From NCBI GenBank assembly GCA_944332075.1, contig CALVJL010000012.1, positions 1 through 33,066 of the forward strand: 33,066 bases of DNA. The letters run 5' to 3'. Below, in pieces: positions 7,589-21,598 of this stretch. A model generated the notes under the pieces. It worked only from the letters and a program-made list of their open reading frames with translations, made no database searches and was not told where the DNA came from. The stretch's first letter is position 1; each line of letters opens with the position of its first letter. The stretch is from an uncultured Bacilli bacterium. GTDB taxonomy: Bacteria; Bacillota_I; Bacilli_A; RFN20; CAG-449. A program made the position numbers and the translations under genes.

Positions 7589-8962
7589 ATGTCATTATTT
7601 AAATCAGAAGGATGCAAGCATCTGACTGGAATCAATGACACCAAACATTTAACCTCAGAAAAAGAGATTTTGACTCTCCCTGATGAATACAGCAAGGAAG
7701 TCTATGTACCTCTTGTCGATCCAGGTAAAGGATTACCAATTAACGTTGAAGCTAAAGTTGGCGATCACGTTAAAGTTGGTACCTTAATCGGAACGAGAAA
7801 TATGTTTGGTAACTTGATTCCAATCTATTCACCGGTTTCCGGTGTCATCAAAGGTGAAGAAAATATTCTTCACGGCGGACTTGGCAGAATGGCCAAGCAT
7901 TACGTTATCGAAAACGATTTCAAGTATGAAAATGTCAAAGTTTGCGAACCATTTTCATTAGAATCTGATTCCGATACAATTATCGATGCTATGCAGAAAC
8001 TTGGATTAGTCGGTCTCGGCGGAGCTGGTTTCCCAACATTCATCAAATATAAAGGTGTTAAAGATATCGATACTATTATTATCAATGGTGTCGAATGCGA
8101 ACCATTCTTAACTACCGACTACAACGCAATGATTAAAGAAAGCGAAGAATTATTCCTCGGTGCCTCTTTAATGATGAAAGCTGCACATGCTCAAAGAGCT
8201 TTAATTTGCTTTAAGCAAAACAAAGTTAGAGTCTATGAGGCTTTGAAAGATAAAGTTCATGAACATCCAGGCCTTGAACTTAAATTAGTTCCAGATGTCT
8301 ATCCGATGGGCTGGGAAAAACTTCTCTGCAAGACAGTTACTGGTAGAACTTATGAAAAATTACCAGCAGAAGCTCACGTAATTATCAATAACGCTCAAAC
8401 AGCAATTGAATTAGCTAAGTCGTCTAAGACTGGCTTTATTACAAGAAGCAAAATGCTCACAGTTACCGGTGAAGGCCTTAAAGAAAACGCTAATGTAATA
8501 GTGCCAATCGGAACTAAGGTTAGTGAAATTGTTCGTTTCATGGGTGGTTATACCATCGATGAAGGTGTCGTTTTATTAGGTGGACCAATGTGTTCAAGAG
8601 GCTTAATGAACGATAACTGCGCAATTCTTCCTCAAAACGATGCTATCACCGTTTTAAGAAAGTTAAAGAGAAGAACTCAACAATGCTTAAGATGCGGTGC
8701 TTGTACAGATCACTGCCCAACTAACTTACAGCCAGTTGAGATTAAAATCGCATATGAACACAAAGACATGGATAGAATGATGGCTTTGAAACCAACAGTC
8801 TGTATCGGCTGCGGATTATGTTCTTATGTCTGCCCAAGCCAAATTGAAGTCAATGATTTCGTTAAGAAGGCTAAGGCTTTAGTTATGATGGAACAAACAA
8901 AACGCAAAGCCGCTGAAGCTAAAAAGGCTGAAGCAGCAAAACCTCAAGGAGGAAAACAATAA
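7589..8962 (+). CDS. rnfC: Rnf complex subunit RnfC (NADH-binding, iron-sulfur)
   Basis: 457 residues, typical of Firmicutes RnfC. This peripheral subunit binds FMN and NAD(H) and carries two [4Fe-4S] clusters. The N-terminal barrel-like region is followed by the glycine-rich VGLGGAGFPTFIK motif (about 141-153) and the INGVECEPFLTTDY FMN/NADH-site signature. The cluster motifs CLRCGACTDHC and CIGCGLCSYVC begin at C366 and C405, each with a following CP. The C-terminal ~25 residues are Lys/Ala-rich. The start has a GAGGAG ribosome site. Its stop overlaps the rnfD start by one base, indicating translational coupling. Confidence 0.97.
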   Translation: MSLFKSEGCKHLTGINDTKHLTSEKEILTLPDEYSKEVYVPLVDPGKGLPINVEAKVGDHVKVGTLIGTRNMFGNLIPIYSPVSGVIKGEENILHGGLGRMAKHYVIENDFKYENVKVCEPFSLESDSDTIIDAMQKLGLVGLGGAGFPTFIKYKGVKDIDTIIINGVECEPFLTTDYNAMIKESEELFLGASLMMKAAHAQRALICFKQNKVRVYEALKDKVHEHPGLELKLVPDVYPMGWEKLLCKTVTGRTYEKLPAEAHVIINNAQTAIELAKSSKTGFITRSKMLTVTGEGLKENANVIVPIGTKVSEIVRFMGGYTIDEGVVLLGGPMCSRGLMNDNCAILPQNDAITVLRKLKRRTQQCLRCGACTDHCPTNLQPVEIKIAYEHKDMDRMMALKPTVCIGCGLCSYVCPSQIEVNDFVKKAKALVMMEQTKRKAAEAKKAEAAKPQGGKQ

Positions 8963-10905
8963 TGAAATTCGGAATGAATCCGGGTCCATATTATCGTTCA
9001 AACAGATCAACTACCCACATTATGATGGAGTTGATGATCGGTTTGGCTGTAATTTGGCTCAGCGCGATCGTCTTCTACTTCATGCAAAGCAACGCTAACG
9101 GTGTCTTAGCTATCGTTAATCCGATAATTGCTATGGTTACCGCTATCGTTGTCGAAGCTCTCTTCATGCTTCCAAAGACGATTAAAGAAAAGAGAAGCTT
9201 CAAAGATTTACTCGATGATGTATTTCATTCCTATGGCTATGTCAGCGGAATGATCTTAGCTTTAATTTTACCGGTTGCAACTTCTTGGTATGCAATCGTC
9301 ATTTCTACAATTATCGGTGTTGGCGTCGCTAAGATGCTCTTCGGCGGATTTGGTCACAACATCTTTAACCCAGCAATCGTTGGAAGAATCATTTGCCAAA
9401 CTTGCTTCTTAGACAAGATGGCTTATGACGCTGAAATCACAACCGGTGCAACTATTACTACCGCTATGGGCAGCAATGGTTGGTCTCTTGATTTACTCAA
9501 TACCGGTCACGTTTCCTTTATCGATCTCTTATTTGGTAACTACCGCGGTGCTTTAGGTGAAACCTTTACTATTATCTTATTAATAGTCGGTATCGTTTTA
9601 GTTATTAGAAAAGTTATCGACTGGAGAGCTCCAGTATTCTACTTAGCAACCATTTATGTCGCAACCTTCATCATGGGCCTTTGCGGCGGATATGGTATCG
9701 ATAGCTTTGAATATGCTTTAGTCCAAATTGCTTTAGGCGGCGTTATGTTCGGCGCAGTCTTCTGCTTAACTGACCCAGTTACTTCACCTACTTCAAGAGC
9801 TGGCCGCGTTTTCTTCGGTATGGGTGCTGCTTTAATTACTATGTTAATTAGATACTGCGCTTCTGCTCCTGAAGGCGTTGCTTATTCAATTCTCTTTATG
9901 AATCTCTTCACACCGCTTATTGATTTAGCAGTTAAGGGATTAAGTAAAGAACATACTAGAAGAAATATCATCACAACATCCGTTATGGGTGCAGTCGCTA
10001 TTGTCGGCGGACTTTACTTAGGCTTCAGCAAGATTGATAAGATGGGATTCTTCAACTATGAATACTCATTTGCTGATAAGACTGGTGAATTCACTGCAAC
10101 TATCAACTATGCTGGTGCAAAAGACGGCATTGAAAGCTATGACGTCTCTGTTACCGGTTATGTCGCAACCAACACTGAACATAATTTCGGTGATGTTAGA
10201 ACAGTTTTCGCAGGTGCTCTTGATAAATACGAAAACGGAACTGAATATCCAAATTATCAATTCGTCGTCAATGATAACGGTACATCCCTTGATTTAACTT
10301 ATGAAAAGGATGATGCTGAACAAACTATCGAAGGTGTTCTCAAATTAAAAACTGATAACACTAACGATACTTATACTATTGTTGATTCAGTTTCTGGATA
10401 TTATCTCCCAACTGATGTTTCCACAGAAGAAGCTGTTTATTCATTAGAAATTGCAGATGATTATTCTATCATCCTTACTATGGCTGATGGACATACTTCA
10501 CAAGATAACAATTCCATGTCTTATGCTTCTATGAGCTTCACCATTGATATTGATTATGAAAATAAAGTCGTAGTTGCAACACACTTAAAATCTACTGGTG
10601 CTGGCGGCGGATACGGCGATGCAATGCTTGATTTTGAAAATACTCCATATGCTCCTTATTTAAGCGATGAGGCAGCGATGAAGTTATTGAATTTCTATGC
10701 TACATACGTCAATATCTCTACTCCTGTCCCATTCTCAACTTATGAAAAATACAACACTCAGACTGCATTGATTGATACAGTTAATAGCGATTTACATGTC
10801 GGTGCAACTTATACTGCTAACGGCTTTATGTATATGATGAACCGCGTTATTGAATACGCTCAATATTATCATCAATCATTATCAGCCGGAAAGGTGGTCA
10901 GATAA
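8962..10905 (+). CDS. rnfD: Rnf complex subunit RnfD with a large extra C-terminal domain
   Basis: 647 residues, against about 300-350 for ordinary RnfD. Residues 1-355 form the multi-span membrane core. TTGAT at 160-164 matches the S/T-G-A-T flavinylation motif, with Thr164 the expected covalent FMN site. DPVTSPTSRAGR (about 271) is a conserved NqrB/RnfD stretch. After the last core span (about 335-355) comes an extra ~290-residue soluble domain, probably extracellular because it continues from the side where FMN is attached. It ends in D610-L-H-V-G-A-T616-Y-T, which lines up with the FMN_bind/ApbE target pattern D-x-x-S-G-A-T-x-T except for Val in place of Ser. The region around 590-635 otherwise reads like the closing part of an FMN_bind domain. 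A fused RnfG-like domain is inferred from this. Confidence 0.93.
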   Translation: MKFGMNPGPYYRSNRSTTHIMMELMIGLAVIWLSAIVFYFMQSNANGVLAIVNPIIAMVTAIVVEALFMLPKTIKEKRSFKDLLDDVFHSYGYVSGMILALILPVATSWYAIVISTIIGVGVAKMLFGGFGHNIFNPAIVGRIICQTCFLDKMAYDAEITTGATITTAMGSNGWSLDLLNTGHVSFIDLLFGNYRGALGETFTIILLIVGIVLVIRKVIDWRAPVFYLATIYVATFIMGLCGGYGIDSFEYALVQIALGGVMFGAVFCLTDPVTSPTSRAGRVFFGMGAALITMLIRYCASAPEGVAYSILFMNLFTPLIDLAVKGLSKEHTRRNIITTSVMGAVAIVGGLYLGFSKIDKMGFFNYEYSFADKTGEFTATINYAGAKDGIESYDVSVTGYVATNTEHNFGDVRTVFAGALDKYENGTEYPNYQFVVNDNGTSLDLTYEKDDAEQTIEGVLKLKTDNTNDTYTIVDSVSGYYLPTDVSTEEAVYSLEIADDYSIILTMADGHTSQDNNSMSYASMSFTIDIDYENKVVVATHLKSTGAGGGYGDAMLDFENTPYAPYLSDEAAMKLLNFYATYVNISTPVPFSTYEKYNTQTALIDTVNSDLHVGATYTANGFMYMMNRVIEYAQYYHQSLSAGKVVR

Positions 10906-10907
10906 TT

Positions 10908-11858
10908 ATGAATAAATTAGTAAAGATGCCTTTATTCTTAGGTGTTACCTGCCTCGTCTGCGGCGGATTACTCGCAGGTATCGTCGCTTTGACTGATCCG
11001 GTTATTGAAAAGAATGAGCAAGAACGCTTATCAGCAGCATTCAGAACTATGTATGATGATGAAAGCGCACTTGTTACTAAAACCATCGTTATCAATGAAG
11101 AAGGTAATCCAATTTCTGAAATTAACGATGTCACTCATACTGGAGGAGAATCAGCTGTCTATAAAGTTACTTCTTCTTCCTCTTATGAAAGAATGACTTT
11201 CTACGTCGGTATCTCTAGAGAGAATAATACTGTTGATGCTTATTATTCATTGTCAACATCTACTTCTTCTCTTGGATATGGCAACTTCCAAAACTCTGCT
11301 AATATTTCAAATCTCTATCAAGGATATGATGGAAACGGAACAATTATCATTGCCGGAACATCGGTTACTTCAAGAGCGGTTAAAGTCGCTGTTGATGCTT
11401 GCCTTGATGATTATGCGGTTAGATATTTAGGCGAAGGCGGAAGCCAAGATGAGACATTAGCTTTCTACCAAGAAATGTATGGTGAAAGCGCCGTCCTCAA
11501 GGCTGAAGCAGCTATCAATGAAGGTGGAGTTTTAAATGGCTATCTCGTCGAATACGAAGATGCAACTCATTATATCTATGAATTAACAATCACTGTTGAT
11601 GGAACAACAACTACTTACTATGTCGGTATGGATAATGCTGGTCGCGGTGAAGTTTATAAGTATATTAGCTGCACTGATATCAATACTTGGTCATTCTTCT
11701 ATCTCCACAACAATGAAAAGATGACAGAAGGTATCAAAGGAAAATTCCATGGTACATTCGAAATTGCTCCAGAAAGCGAAGAAGTAAATACAGCTTTCAA
11801 TGAAGTCTATACTTTCGCTTTGCAAGATCTTGCTGTGCGCGACTGGGAGGTAAAGTAA
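10908..11858 (+). CDS. rnfG: RnfG-like FMN-binding subunit with a degenerate flavinylation motif
   Basis: 316 residues, longer than the usual ~190-210. An N-terminal membrane anchor (about 9-29) is followed by an extracellular domain. TDPVIEKNEQERLSAAF after the anchor and the SLGYGNFQN region are RnfG-like. The expected acceptor motif S-G-A-T-x-T-S appears as A149-G-T-S152-V-T-S, and the Asp three residues before the S/A position is Ile. If flavin is bound covalently, Ser152 would be the acceptor; otherwise flavinylation is lost. Residues ~165-316 look like a second, motif-free copy of the same kind of domain. The gene's place between rnfD and rnfE fixes its identity. The ribosome site GGTGG overlaps the end of rnfD. 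Confidence 0.85.
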   Translation: MNKLVKMPLFLGVTCLVCGGLLAGIVALTDPVIEKNEQERLSAAFRTMYDDESALVTKTIVINEEGNPISEINDVTHTGGESAVYKVTSSSSYERMTFYVGISRENNTVDAYYSLSTSTSSLGYGNFQNSANISNLYQGYDGNGTIIIAGTSVTSRAVKVAVDACLDDYAVRYLGEGGSQDETLAFYQEMYGESAVLKAEAAINEGGVLNGYLVEYEDATHYIYELTITVDGTTTTYYVGMDNAGRGEVYKYISCTDINTWSFFYLHNNEKMTEGIKGKFHGTFEIAPESEEVNTAFNEVYTFALQDLAVRDWEVK

Positions 11859-11859
11859 A

Positions 11860-12534
11860 ATGAAAGAAACAAAAACAAGTTTACGCCAAGCCTTCACTAA
11901 TCCGATTTTTAAAGAAAATCCGATTCTCGTGACATTATTAGGCCTTTGCCCGGTTTTAATCGTTACTGATACATTTGATAAATCTTGGGGTATGGGAATT
12001 GCTGTCTTATTAGTTCTTATTTTCACTAATATCTTCATTTCTCTTATTCGTAAGATTGTTCCTAATGAAGTTAGAATTCCAGTATTCATCGTTATCATCG
12101 CTTGCTTTGTTACTATTGTCGAACGTTTGATGAACGCTTATACTCCAACTTTATATTCTTCCTTAGGTGTTATTATTTCAATGATCACCGTTAACTGTAT
12201 CGTCCTCGGACGCGGCGAAGCTTTCGCTAGTAAAAACGGTGTTCTTCCTTCTCTTCTCGATGCTATCGGTACTGGAATTGGCTTCTTCTTAGCTGTTTCC
12301 GTTATCGGTTTAGTTAGAGAATTCTTAGGCAAAGGTGGATTGACTATTTCTAATCCTTTCACCGGAGTCGCTATTTTCTCAGCTTATCCATTAGAAGACT
12401 ATGCTATTTCCTTCCTCTGCGATAAGGGCGGAGCATTCTTAATGCTTGGCTTAGCAGTCGGTATCTATTCTTATGTCAGAATCAAACTCGACGAAAGAAA
12501 AGAAAAGGAAGCTGCTCAAGTGGAGGTTAAATAA
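11860..12534 (+). CDS. rnfE: Rnf complex membrane subunit RnfE
   Basis: 224 residues with six predicted membrane spans. Family signatures are LGLCPVLIVTDTFDKSWGMG near residue 22 and NCIVLGRGEAFASKNG near 110. RnfE and RnfA are homologous, oppositely oriented subunits that form the membrane core and hold an iron-sulfur cluster between them through conserved cysteines, here in LGLCP and VNCIV. It starts 1 bp after rnfG with GGGAGG as ribosome site, and is 2 bp from rnfA. Length and motifs are normal. Confidence 0.96.
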   Translation: MKETKTSLRQAFTNPIFKENPILVTLLGLCPVLIVTDTFDKSWGMGIAVLLVLIFTNIFISLIRKIVPNEVRIPVFIVIIACFVTIVERLMNAYTPTLYSSLGVIISMITVNCIVLGRGEAFASKNGVLPSLLDAIGTGIGFFLAVSVIGLVREFLGKGGLTISNPFTGVAIFSAYPLEDYAISFLCDKGGAFLMLGLAVGIYSYVRIKLDERKEKEAAQVEVK

Positions 12535-12536
12535 TT

Positions 12537-13169
12537 ATGGAAGTTATTACCAGTTTATTAGTGGTTTTCATCACTGCGATGATTACCAATAACATCGTCC
12601 TTACCACCGGATATGGTATCTGTTCCTATATCGGTGTTTCCAAAAACAGAAAATCGGCATTCGGCATGGGTGTCGCTTTAGTCTTCGTCGTCTTCATGGC
12701 GAGCTTAGTCTCTTATTTCTTAGAGATGCTCTTAGTAGCTTTGAATATTGAATTTATGCAGACCATCTGCTTTATCTTAGTCATCGCTTCTTTAGTTCAA
12801 CTCGTCGAAATGATCGTTAAGAAATTCTTACCTTCACTTTATAAGAGCTTAGGTATCTACTTACCATTGATTACTACTAACTGCGTTGTCTTATATGTCA
12901 CAAAACAAATTTGCGATGTCGAGACTATTCTCACCGGATTAGGTTTATCTGGCAGCTTAGCAAACAATGGCTTCTTCAATTTCCTCTTCGCGATGGTTTA
13001 TGCCTTAGGCACAGGCTTAGGATATTTCGTCTGTATCGTCTTATTCTCAACCATCAGAACTAAAATCGATTATTCACCGGTTAAGAGAGGTTTCTATGGT
13101 GCCGGTATCGCTTTAGTTACAACTGCTTTAATGGCTCTTACTATCACAGGCTTAGCAGGAATTTTCTAG
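12537..13169 (+). CDS. rnfA: Rnf complex membrane subunit RnfA
   Basis: 210 residues with six spans, slightly longer than the usual ~190. Signatures are ITAMITNNIVLTTGYGICSYIGVS at the N-terminus and LPLITTNCVVLYV near residue 117, each with one of the cluster cysteines. The TTGYGIC stretch differs from the FLGICPF form seen in many relatives. RnfA pairs with RnfE in the ion-translocating core. The GTGGAGG ribosome site lies in the end of rnfE, and the stop is 1 bp before the next small gene. Confidence 0.95.
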   Translation: MEVITSLLVVFITAMITNNIVLTTGYGICSYIGVSKNRKSAFGMGVALVFVVFMASLVSYFLEMLLVALNIEFMQTICFILVIASLVQLVEMIVKKFLPSLYKSLGIYLPLITTNCVVLYVTKQICDVETILTGLGLSGSLANNGFFNFLFAMVYALGTGLGYFVCIVLFSTIRTKIDYSPVKRGFYGAGIALVTTALMALTITGLAGIF

Positions 13170-13170
13170 A

Positions 13171-13356
13171 ATGCGATATCTCTACATTCTGTTAGTGCTC
13201 ATCGTCTTCGTCGGGGTTTTCTGCTTAATTTGGTATCTTAATTCTCGGACTAAGAAACCAGATGATTGCGGAGAACTGCCAGAAGAATGTAAGCACTGCA
13301 GTGTTACTATCTGTAAGAATCATCCTAAAGATCAGAAAACGGAGGAAAAGAAATGA
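13171..13356 (+). CDS. Small cysteine-rich membrane protein between rnfA and rnfB
   Basis: 61 residues. One membrane span (about 4-22) is followed by a short soluble tail with C33-x6-C40-x2-C43-x4-C48 and a Lys/Glu-rich end. Four tail cysteines could hold zinc or an iron-sulfur cluster; neither is proven. The gene lies 1 bp after rnfA and overlaps the rnfB start by 4 bp (ATGA), so its product should be made with Rnf. I know of no named family. Because RnfB here lacks its usual ferredoxin domains, this protein is a candidate extra electron carrier or assembly factor. The ribosome site (AGGA) is weak, fitting coupling to rnfA. Confidence 0.75.
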   Translation: MRYLYILLVLIVFVGVFCLIWYLNSRTKKPDDCGELPEECKHCSVTICKNHPKDQKTEEKK

Positions 13357-13637
13357 TTTACGTTTACGCTTGTATCGTTGTCGTTGTCGCCGGAATTATC
13401 TTAGGTTTAGCCTTAGGCTTAGCCGATAAATATTTAAAGATTGAAGAAGATCCACGTAAAGACGACATTACAGCATTGCTTCCAGGTGCTAACTGCGGAG
13501 CATGTGGTTATCCTGGCTGCTCAGGTTTAGCAGAAGCTATGGTCGAGGGAAAATCTACTAAAGCTAGCGACTGCAAAGTCATCAAAGGTGACAAGCAAAA
13601 AGCTTTACAAGATTATCTCGACAATATGAAGAAATAA
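13353..13637 (+). CDS. rnfB: Minimal RnfB: membrane anchor plus one 4Fe-4S domain, no ferredoxin domains
   Basis: 94 residues. An N-terminal span (about 2-22) is followed by ITALLPGANCGACGYPGC, with cluster ligands C48, C51, C56 and C74, the PF04060-type Fer4 domain at the base of every RnfB. Ordinary RnfB continues for 90-200 residues with two or more CxxCxxCxxxCP ferredoxin motifs that accept electrons from soluble ferredoxin. Here the frame ends cleanly at 13637, and the TSCPD gene starts 2 bp later, so there is no leftover coding sequence. A GGAGG ribosome site precedes the ATG. This is either a lineage-specific short form or a loss compensated by another protein. Confidence 0.9.
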   Translation: MIYVYACIVVVVAGIILGLALGLADKYLKIEEDPRKDDITALLPGANCGACGYPGCSGLAEAMVEGKSTKASDCKVIKGDKQKALQDYLDNMKK

Positions 13638-19801: not shown

Positions 19802-19858
19802 ATGCGCTTTTCTTTGCATTTATTTAAATTTTTTAATAATATTTTAAAAGGTGAGAAT

Positions 19859-21598
19859 ATGAAAAAATTTAAATTATCTTTTTTATTAGTCGCATTAGGA
19901 ACCTTGTCGGCATGTCAGGGCAATAATCCGTTTAATCCAAGCAATAATGAATCCTGGTATTCTAATACTATTCAAACGCAGATTATCGGTATGTCGGGCG
20001 ATCCAGTTCAACCTTTTGATAAAGAAACTAACAGCATGCTTAATCAATTAGACGCGGTCATTTCGCCTTTTGATACGACTATTTCCGTTACTCGTTATCA
20101 AAATAATCAAAATTTCTCGGATATTACTTCCTTAGTTAGAAATAATTTTAGTGAATTACATGCTTATTTTGATTCGCATTACGATTATAAAATTAATGGA
20201 AATTTAATTAATAATCTTAAAACGATTAATGATCATTATGGCGATGGAGAATTTATTGAAGTTAACGATGATTTGTATTCAATTTTACAGACTGCAGTTA
20301 GAGTTACTGAAGTAGCAGATGGCTATTATAACATCGGTATCGGCGCGCTTTCTGATCTTTGGAAAGAATATATTAACTATAATAAGGGCAATACTTCTTC
20401 AGCTCGTCCGATTTACCGTAAGCTTTATACAAGCGCCTTTATGATGGAAACATTATTTAATTACGATATTACCTATGCTGAGGAAGCAAAGGGAATTTAT
20501 GAAGCAATTCTTTTATTAGTTACTGATAAAGGTACTTTTGAAGACAGCCAAAACCTAGCATATCATTTGAAATTTATTAACGGTGAAGAAGAAGCTGATT
20601 TCCTTTTAGGATTTAATAACCAATTAAAAATTAATGCTTATACTTTATTAAACGGGGATGAGCTTACTTCTTTAGCAAATTTAAAAGAAAATGCAGTAAG
20701 CAGCCAAATTAAGAATTTTACTAAAGGTAGTAATTTAACAATTTTTGGTGACAGCAACCTTGATTCTAGATTCACTCAATTACTTGAAAATGTAGTTACT
20801 GATGCCTCAGCGCGTCTAGAAAAGACGAAAAAAGGTATGGTACCAACTGCTAGTGAAGTAGCGGCTGCTAAATCGGCTGTTCCATCCGGAGAAGAAATTG
20901 CTTCAGTTGTCGAATTTAAAGAAGAAAATAATAAAAAGTACGTTAGATTAAATAAATTACAAGGTGCAGAGCAAGATGTGAGATTATCGCTTGGTTCTAT
21001 CGGTAAAGGTTATGCTGTTAAGAAAATGCAGGAAAAACTTGATCCAAACGGAATCGCTTATGTTAATGGCGGTGATTCATCAGTTTCGACAATTAATGAT
21101 AATATGTTCGGTGCTTGGAAATTAGCAATTACCAATCCTTTATATGGTGAAGCAGTAAATCAAGGCGATAATGCGACTGCTCAGAAATATAATTCGGCAG
21201 AAATGCGTTTAAGCCGTCAGGGAAGTTTCTCTTTCTCGACATCTGGCGATTATGTTAACTGCTATTTTGATAGTGAAGGTCAACGTTATCATCACATTAT
21301 TAACCCAGTTACCGGTTACCCTTCAAATACTTTCAGGACAGTTTCAGTCGTCTGCTCAGATTCGACTTTTGCTGACGCTATTACTACCGGATTAATGGCG
21401 ATGACCATGGATGAAGGTAAAGAATTTATTAAGAATTTACGTTCTCAGTACTCTTTAACTATTTATCCGATTTGGACAGTTCAAGATGGTGCTAGCTTAA
21501 AAGTTTATGCGGATAAAACCCTTGAAGGACAATTAAAAGTTGATCGCGGACAGGAAACACAGAATATTGTTACCAGTTTAGAATTTATTGAGATATAA
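19859..21598 (+). CDS. apbE: FAD:protein FMN transferase ApbE, lipoprotein with a large insertion
   Basis: 579 residues, against about 330-350 for most ApbE. ApbE attaches FMN to Thr/Ser of RnfD, RnfG and similar extracytoplasmic proteins. A lipoprotein signal ends in the lipobox LSAC with Cys19. Residues ~60-160 include SPFDTTISVTRY and the GYYNIGIGALSDLWK stretch of the ApbE N-terminus. About 200 residues then separate this from the active-site part: LGSIGKGYAV (G382-K-G), YVNGGDSS, HHIINPVTGYPSNT (from H478) and the magnesium-ligand stretch ADAITTG (D506, T509/T510). The start at 19859 has AAAGGTGAG upstream and gives a proper signal peptide; the upstream in-frame ATG at 19802 sits at the hpf terminator. 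The insertion (about 165-370) resembles nothing I recognise. It probably serves the Rnf proteins encoded 6 kb away. Confidence 0.92.
   Translation: MKKFKLSFLLVALGTLSACQGNNPFNPSNNESWYSNTIQTQIIGMSGDPVQPFDKETNSMLNQLDAVISPFDTTISVTRYQNNQNFSDITSLVRNNFSELHAYFDSHYDYKINGNLINNLKTINDHYGDGEFIEVNDDLYSILQTAVRVTEVADGYYNIGIGALSDLWKEYINYNKGNTSSARPIYRKLYTSAFMMETLFNYDITYAEEAKGIYEAILLLVTDKGTFEDSQNLAYHLKFINGEEEADFLLGFNNQLKINAYTLLNGDELTSLANLKENAVSSQIKNFTKGSNLTIFGDSNLDSRFTQLLENVVTDASARLEKTKKGMVPTASEVAAAKSAVPSGEEIASVVEFKEENNKKYVRLNKLQGAEQDVRLSLGSIGKGYAVKKMQEKLDPNGIAYVNGGDSSVSTINDNMFGAWKLAITNPLYGEAVNQGDNATAQKYNSAEMRLSRQGSFSFSTSGDYVNCYFDSEGQRYHHIINPVTGYPSNTFRTVSVVCSDSTFADAITTGLMAMTMDEGKEFIKNLRSQYSLTIYPIWTVQDGASLKVYADKTLEGQLKVDRGQETQNIVTSLEFIEI

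Follow-up and report, generated by a model that had tools for sequence, protein, structure and literature searches.

A predicted RnfG-type flavin domain at the C-terminus of RnfD in the Rnf complex of Bacilli

Introduction

The Rnf complex is a main energy-conserving enzyme of anaerobes, and recent structures place a single FMN on RnfG and both an FMN and a riboflavin on RnfD. RnfD usually comprises about 320-360 residues. The known electron path runs from ferredoxin via RnfB and the [2Fe-2S] cluster of RnfA/E to the FMN of RnfG, and further through the FMN of RnfD, riboflavin, and RnfC to NAD (PMC11889175, PMC12174285). The RnfD of A. woodii comprises ten helices, with N- and C-terminal loops that bind to RnfC in the cytosol (PMC11889175). 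The published motif of the flavin transferase ApbE is D-x-x-[S/T]-G-A-[S/T], in which changes of the Asp have a minor effect, whereas changes of the Gly or Ala approximately halve flavinylation (PMC12052999).

The standard members of the RnfD/NqrB family (PF03116, TIGR01946) end in a short cytosolic tail after ten helices. In members of the RnfG/NqrC family (PF04205), one membrane helix precedes the extracytoplasmic FMN_bind domain, whose acceptor is of the [S/T]GAT type. Extra FMN_bind domains within the Rnf complex have been described for the multi-flavinylated RnfG, for which a second extracytosolic path has been proposed (Meheust et al., 2021; PMC8238504). The NQR/RNF-like complexes combine an RnfD/NqrB-type membrane domain with an extracytosolic FMN_bind domain; they have two subunits and a cytosolic NAD-binding PF00175 domain, lack the flavinylation threonine, and were proposed to export electrons one way (PMC8238504, PMC11334425).

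Here, we analyzed a 33,066-nucleotide stretch of DNA from an uncultured Bacilli bacterium, hereafter the window, which encodes an RnfD with a long C-terminal extension. This RnfD shares with the RnfD/NqrB family the core, the T164 flavin site, and the position in the rnfCDGEAB operon but differs by an eleventh helix and a predicted extracytoplasmic flavin domain. The order of one membrane helix, an extracytoplasmic FMN_bind domain, and a GAT-type acceptor is predicted to be the same as in RnfG/NqrC, except that the module sits at the C-terminal end of RnfD and rnfG persists as a gene of its own. Unlike in the multi-flavinylated RnfG, the extra domain resides on RnfD; the RnfG of the window matches FMN_bind once, below the threshold, with a weak second region that lacks the motif, and is therefore not of that type. 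In contrast to the NQR/RNF-like complexes, the window encodes the full Rnf set with T164 but no PF00175 domain: rnfCDGEAB is complete, and neither P0001 nor P0002 matches PF00175 in Pfam.

Results

The rnf locus and its ApbE

The genes rnfC-rnfD-rnfG-rnfE-rnfA-rnfB form an operon in the window, all on the + strand, and the source genome of 1.47 Mb is 98.75% complete. The rnfC gene (7589-8962; TIGR01945, 288 bits, above the cut-off) is followed by rnfD (8962-10905), which by direct translation is a single open frame of 647 residues. A separate rnfG (10908-11858, 316 residues) carries the non-canonical flavin site IIIAGTS and matches FMN_bind with 15.8 bits, below the cut-off, and TIGR01947 weakly, with the motif in register. 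The rnfE gene (11860-12534; PRK12405, 228.6 bits) keeps Cys30 and Cys113, and rnfA (12537-13169; TIGR01943, 180.9 bits) keeps Cys29 and Cys116. Since these cysteines and T164 of RnfD are kept, the known Rnf path looks intact. The last gene encodes a mini RnfB of 94 residues (13353-13637; PF04060, E-value of 1.8e-13).

The window also encodes an ApbE flavin transferase (19802-21598, + strand; PF02424, 147.9 bits), which a genome search identified as the sole one in the source genome. Thus, the enzyme for loading FMN on the predicted second acceptor of RnfD (T616, see below) is present in the window. The ApbE profile aligns to two separate stretches of this 598-residue protein, indicating a large insertion compared with the usual ApbE.

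The RnfD core and its extension

The core of RnfD (residues 1-330, 8962-9951) was delineated by PF03116, TIGR01946, and Foldseek. Residues 6-324 match PF03116 with an E-value of 2e-72, confirming the normal core recognized in the first-pass annotation, and the TIGR01946 score of 184.9 bits is somewhat below the cut-off of 207. The full-length model (AF2, mean pLDDT of 71) matches the RnfD structures of A. vinelandii, A. woodii, and C. tetanomorphum in Foldseek with E-values of 1e-14 to 2e-12, over the core only. The first flavinylation motif, E158-I-T-T-G-A-T164 (9433-9453), is read directly from the sequence. T164 is at least 90% conserved among 50 relatives and is a conserved core flavin site with a predicted modification.

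Beyond the core, an extra, eleventh transmembrane helix (residues 332-356, 9955-10029), with a hydropathy peak at 336-354 and an AF2 helix at 332-356, is preceded by the basic stretch KGLSKEHTRRN. Because the C-terminus of RnfD in A. woodii binds the cytosolic RnfC, this additional helix would place the tail outside, as in RnfG, and the tail is accordingly predicted by topology to be extracytoplasmic. A β-rich segment with low-confidence strands follows (residues 357-491, 10030-10434), which among the relatives read is found only in the window genus. We rejected it as a second FMN_bind domain, as it scored 3.2 bits with the tail HMM described below. The C-terminal part comprises the candidate flavin domain (residues ~505-640, 10474-10881), delineated by the tail HMM and the alignments A1 and A3, and contains the second motif, D610-L-H-V-G-A-T616 (10789-10809), with T616 as the predicted FMN acceptor. 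The first-pass annotation had assigned all ~290 extra residues to a flavin domain; this assignment holds for the last ~140 residues, but not for the membrane helix and the segment 357-491. Its coordinates were exact, with residue 356 beginning at 10027 and the motif reading D610-LHVGAT616-YT.

The long frame is also found in two other species, with 98% and 67% identity. Between the window and G001, residues 501-647 show a dN/dS of ~0.015 (1 nonsynonymous versus 18 synonymous differences), and the tail is, judged from these substitutions, under strong purifying selection. The long frame is therefore not a frameshift or an assembly artefact.

Homology of the tail to FMN_bind

Residues 356-647 match no family in Pfam or NCBIfam, so that the profile search proposed in the first-pass annotation failed with FMN_bind itself. 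The homology to FMN_bind emerged from a chain of relatives. The RnfD tail finds same-family tails by tblastn with E-values of 1e-10 to 1e-18, one of which, L048 from the window's own family, scores above the Pfam FMN_bind cut-off (28.6 bits versus 22). We also built an independent HMM from 17 RnfD tails of other families, without any same-family sequence. Residues 492-647 scored 20.5 bits with this HMM, whereas the best of 1000 composition-matched shuffles reached 9.5 bits. With same-family rows included, the window scored 36.9 and 48.5 bits, and its GAT was aligned in register. FMN_bind is matched by 22 of the 29 RnfD tails, and both PF03116 and PF04205 are above the cut-off in L048, L055, L096, L099, L100, L108, and L113.

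The hhalign comparison between the same-family tails (A3) and RnfGs of other families (A4) was not significant, with a probability of 0.6%; a short piece aligned in register, and the negative control RnfA gave 0.1%. An earlier hhalign comparison of 14 RnfD tails with RnfGs, a set that included genera with clearer domains, gave 94.5%. The A3 profile did not find an FMN_bind entry among PDB sequences. The AF2 model of the tail alone had a mean pLDDT of 52, with ~60-90 for the domain part, which is modelled with modest confidence as two strands and helices, the last of which starts from T616. A fold search with this low-confidence tail model (Foldseek, VIA) returned only unrelated low-scoring chains. 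Taken from the sequence comparisons, residues ~505-640 almost certainly constitute a divergent FMN_bind domain fused to RnfD, as the first-pass annotation had suspected.

The second flavinylation motif

D610, G614, A615, and T616 match the ApbE motif, and position 613 (-3) is V instead of S/T. The same position is T in G002, a sister species with a 57% identical tail and the full consensus DLKTGAT; other genera of the family have V or C. In shuffles of residues 356-647 with the composition kept, the loose motif [DN]xx[STV]GA[ST] occurred in 1.2% and GATYT in 0.14%; the GAT motif by itself is thus only moderately surprising, and the argument rests on conservation and homology. The first-pass annotation had named motif residues not conserved in orthologues as a possible refutation: G-A-T-Y-T does not vary among the seven same-family domains aligned in A3, at an intergenus identity of only ~30%. 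The conservation of GAT across the 29 RnfD tails is at least 90%, and the last domain of complete long RnfDs carries [GS]A[ST] in 33 of 45 cases, or in 41 when the pattern is relaxed. T616 probably binds FMN covalently.

Distribution and history of the fusion

An RnfD match was found in 36 of the 58 genomes searched from the same family and order. An RnfD frame of at least 500 residues is present in ~30 of the 108 PF03116-bearing genomes of the order and in many more of the class-wide sample. In many families of the class, a separate rnfG is accompanied by an RnfD whose C-terminus carries one to three FMN_bind domains; there are two in L096 and three in L099, with the motif D-T-[SA]-T-G-A-T. 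The fused RnfD is a class-wide architecture and no peculiarity of the window protein. Long repeat forms were also seen at other loci: a 996-residue RnfD with three FMN_bind-like regions (L054, 4474-7464), a 1114-residue RnfG with about six (L072, 5832-9176), and a 515-residue RnfG with several repeats (L077, 5559-7106).

The eleventh helix is present in every class relative read, fused or unfused, whereas the Lachnospiraceae outgroup RnfDs read have a short basic tail without it. Unfused RnfDs (L051 from G005, L056, L065, L070, L072-L074, L076-L078, and L095) end soon after this helix. These ends resemble stumps of a lost flavin domain. On the RnfD-core tree, the label "fused" changes 7 times versus 18 times expected by shuffling, in a sample enriched for fused forms. 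Together with the eleventh helix in all class relatives read, this fits an early gain of the helix and FMN_bind close to the root of the class, followed by repeated losses. G005 lacks the RnfD flavin domain, which its sister species keep; this is a recent loss, and the flavin domain is dispensable there.

RnfG sites and the mini RnfB

Instead of DxxSGAT, RnfG reads IIIAGTS at the flavin site in the window; G001 has GTT and G002 has GTS there. The residues replacing SGAT read AGTS (window, 10908-11858), TGTT (L046, 5847-6797), and SGTS (L047, 2119-3684). The C-terminal second half of the window-genus RnfG shows a faint FMN_bind signal without the motif. The G002 RnfG (L047, 2119-3684) comprises 521 residues with a near-exact internal duplication, which is either a recent event or an assembly error. 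We considered a strict complementarity between the flavin sites of RnfG and RnfD and rejected it, as altered and perfect RnfG sites do not track the RnfD domain.

The mini RnfB is likewise found throughout the class: 55 class loci have an RnfB-like frame of 89-126 residues, consisting of an N-terminal membrane helix and a single FeS domain. Lachnospiraceae loci with a complete gene encode an RnfB of 307-315 residues that contains three additional cluster motifs. In the RnfBs studied by structure, two to seven clusters in addition to a mobile one receive electrons from ferredoxin (PMC12174285). A second RnfB was not found in the source genome, where the other PF04060 match is a hydrogenase-like, sensor-type iron-sulfur protein. 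Across the class, RnfB is a "mini" protein that lacks the polyferredoxin part on which ferredoxin docks.

Discussion

RnfD, RnfG, FMN_bind, ApbE, and the multi-flavinylated RnfG are already known, and an RnfD bearing FMN_bind is, provisionally, undescribed. Neither the RnfD-FMN_bind fusion nor the truncated RnfB is described in the open-access papers searched.

In the window genus, RnfD joins a ten-helix core with its own T164 FMN site, predicted to be covalent, to an eleventh helix that would carry the chain out of the cell and to an RnfG-type FMN_bind domain, predicted to lie outside. The single ApbE of the genome would very probably attach FMN to T616, adding one covalent flavin to the standard set of RnfD FMN and RnfG FMN. 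The tethered domain would most likely exchange electrons with the flavins that RnfD and RnfG hold on the extracytoplasmic side and could serve as a side outlet (or inlet) toward extracytoplasmic acceptors, with direction and acceptor presumed, while the ordinary U-shaped path RnfB-RnfA/E-RnfG-RnfD-RnfC would stay. The first-pass annotation had expected an extra covalent flavin to change the accepted electron path; any such change is, like the covalent FMN itself, presumed. Tandem RnfD domains beside an intact rnfG (L096, L099) suggest that flavins were added rather than RnfG replaced. Of the roles considered, we regard that of a flavin outlet or relay outside the membrane, next to the U-shaped path, as the most likely, at about even chances.

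In line with such an outlet, as is the second extracytosolic path proposed for the multi-flavinylated RnfG (PMC8238504), the source genome encodes two probable lipoproteins in which FMN_bind-like domains are repeated (L081, 8810-11590; L080, 7700-9157), the former with these domains joined to BspA-type leucine-rich repeats; both are possible multi-flavin surface proteins. NapH-like, DsbD, ferric-reductase/MsrQ, and PepSY membrane conduits were not found in the source genome at the Pfam level. Only some members of the window genus were found to have the multi-FMN_bind lipoproteins, and in most same-family genomes with the fused RnfD, FMN_bind matches lie only within the rnf locus. Since the lipoproteins are missing from most of these genomes, they cannot be the general acceptor.

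Alternatively, the tethered domain could lie in the main path, taking over or sharing the RnfG shuttle from the [2Fe-2S] cluster of RnfA/E to the RnfD FMN while the RnfG site is degraded. The altered window-genus RnfG sites next to an RnfD tail that retains GATYT are in line with this arrangement, and the FMN threonine of the A. woodii RnfG is essential (PMC11889175). However, L058, L064, L066, and L067 have an altered RnfG site (GVT, GTT, GQT) without an RnfD domain, and L096-L101 carry one to three RnfD domains despite a perfect RnfG site. The acceptor of RnfG is still S or T and may still be flavinylated, and G005 has lost the RnfD domain, so that we regard a place in the main path as unlikely. 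A flavin-free relic with a structural or docking role, stabilizing the extracytoplasmic side of the complex, would explain the repeated losses, the V at -3 in the window species, and the motifs degenerated in several relatives, e.g., L075, L084, and L057. Against such a relic stand the invariant GATYT of the seven same-family domains, the remainder of which is so divergent between genera, the very low dN/dS, and the retention of the single ApbE, making it improbable.

The empty searches of Pfam and NCBIfam with residues 356-647 and of the fold databases with the tail model, as well as the non-significant comparison of A3 with A4, would also be expected of an unrelated extracytoplasmic domain with a GAT motif by chance. 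This explanation is strongly disfavoured by the independent tail HMM, in which the tail far outscored all of its shuffles, by the homology chain with the motif conserved and in register, and by unmistakable FMN_bind domains in the same architecture elsewhere in the class; we consider it very improbable.

The mini RnfB and the outward extension of RnfD led us to consider that the Rnf of the class has been rebuilt as an electron exporter, in which a single-cluster stub RnfB is combined with an RnfD whose one to three covalently flavinylated domains would pass electrons from NADH or ferredoxin to acceptors outside the cell, coupled to ion transport. We put this forward only tentatively and deem it rather doubtful.

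If true, a class-wide RnfD bearing one to three additional extracytoplasmic flavin domains alongside a minimal RnfB would imply a differently wired Rnf in a large group of Bacilli. The fusion offers a simple route by which such bacteria could send electrons outside, and it would be a natural construct for studying the RnfG shuttle.
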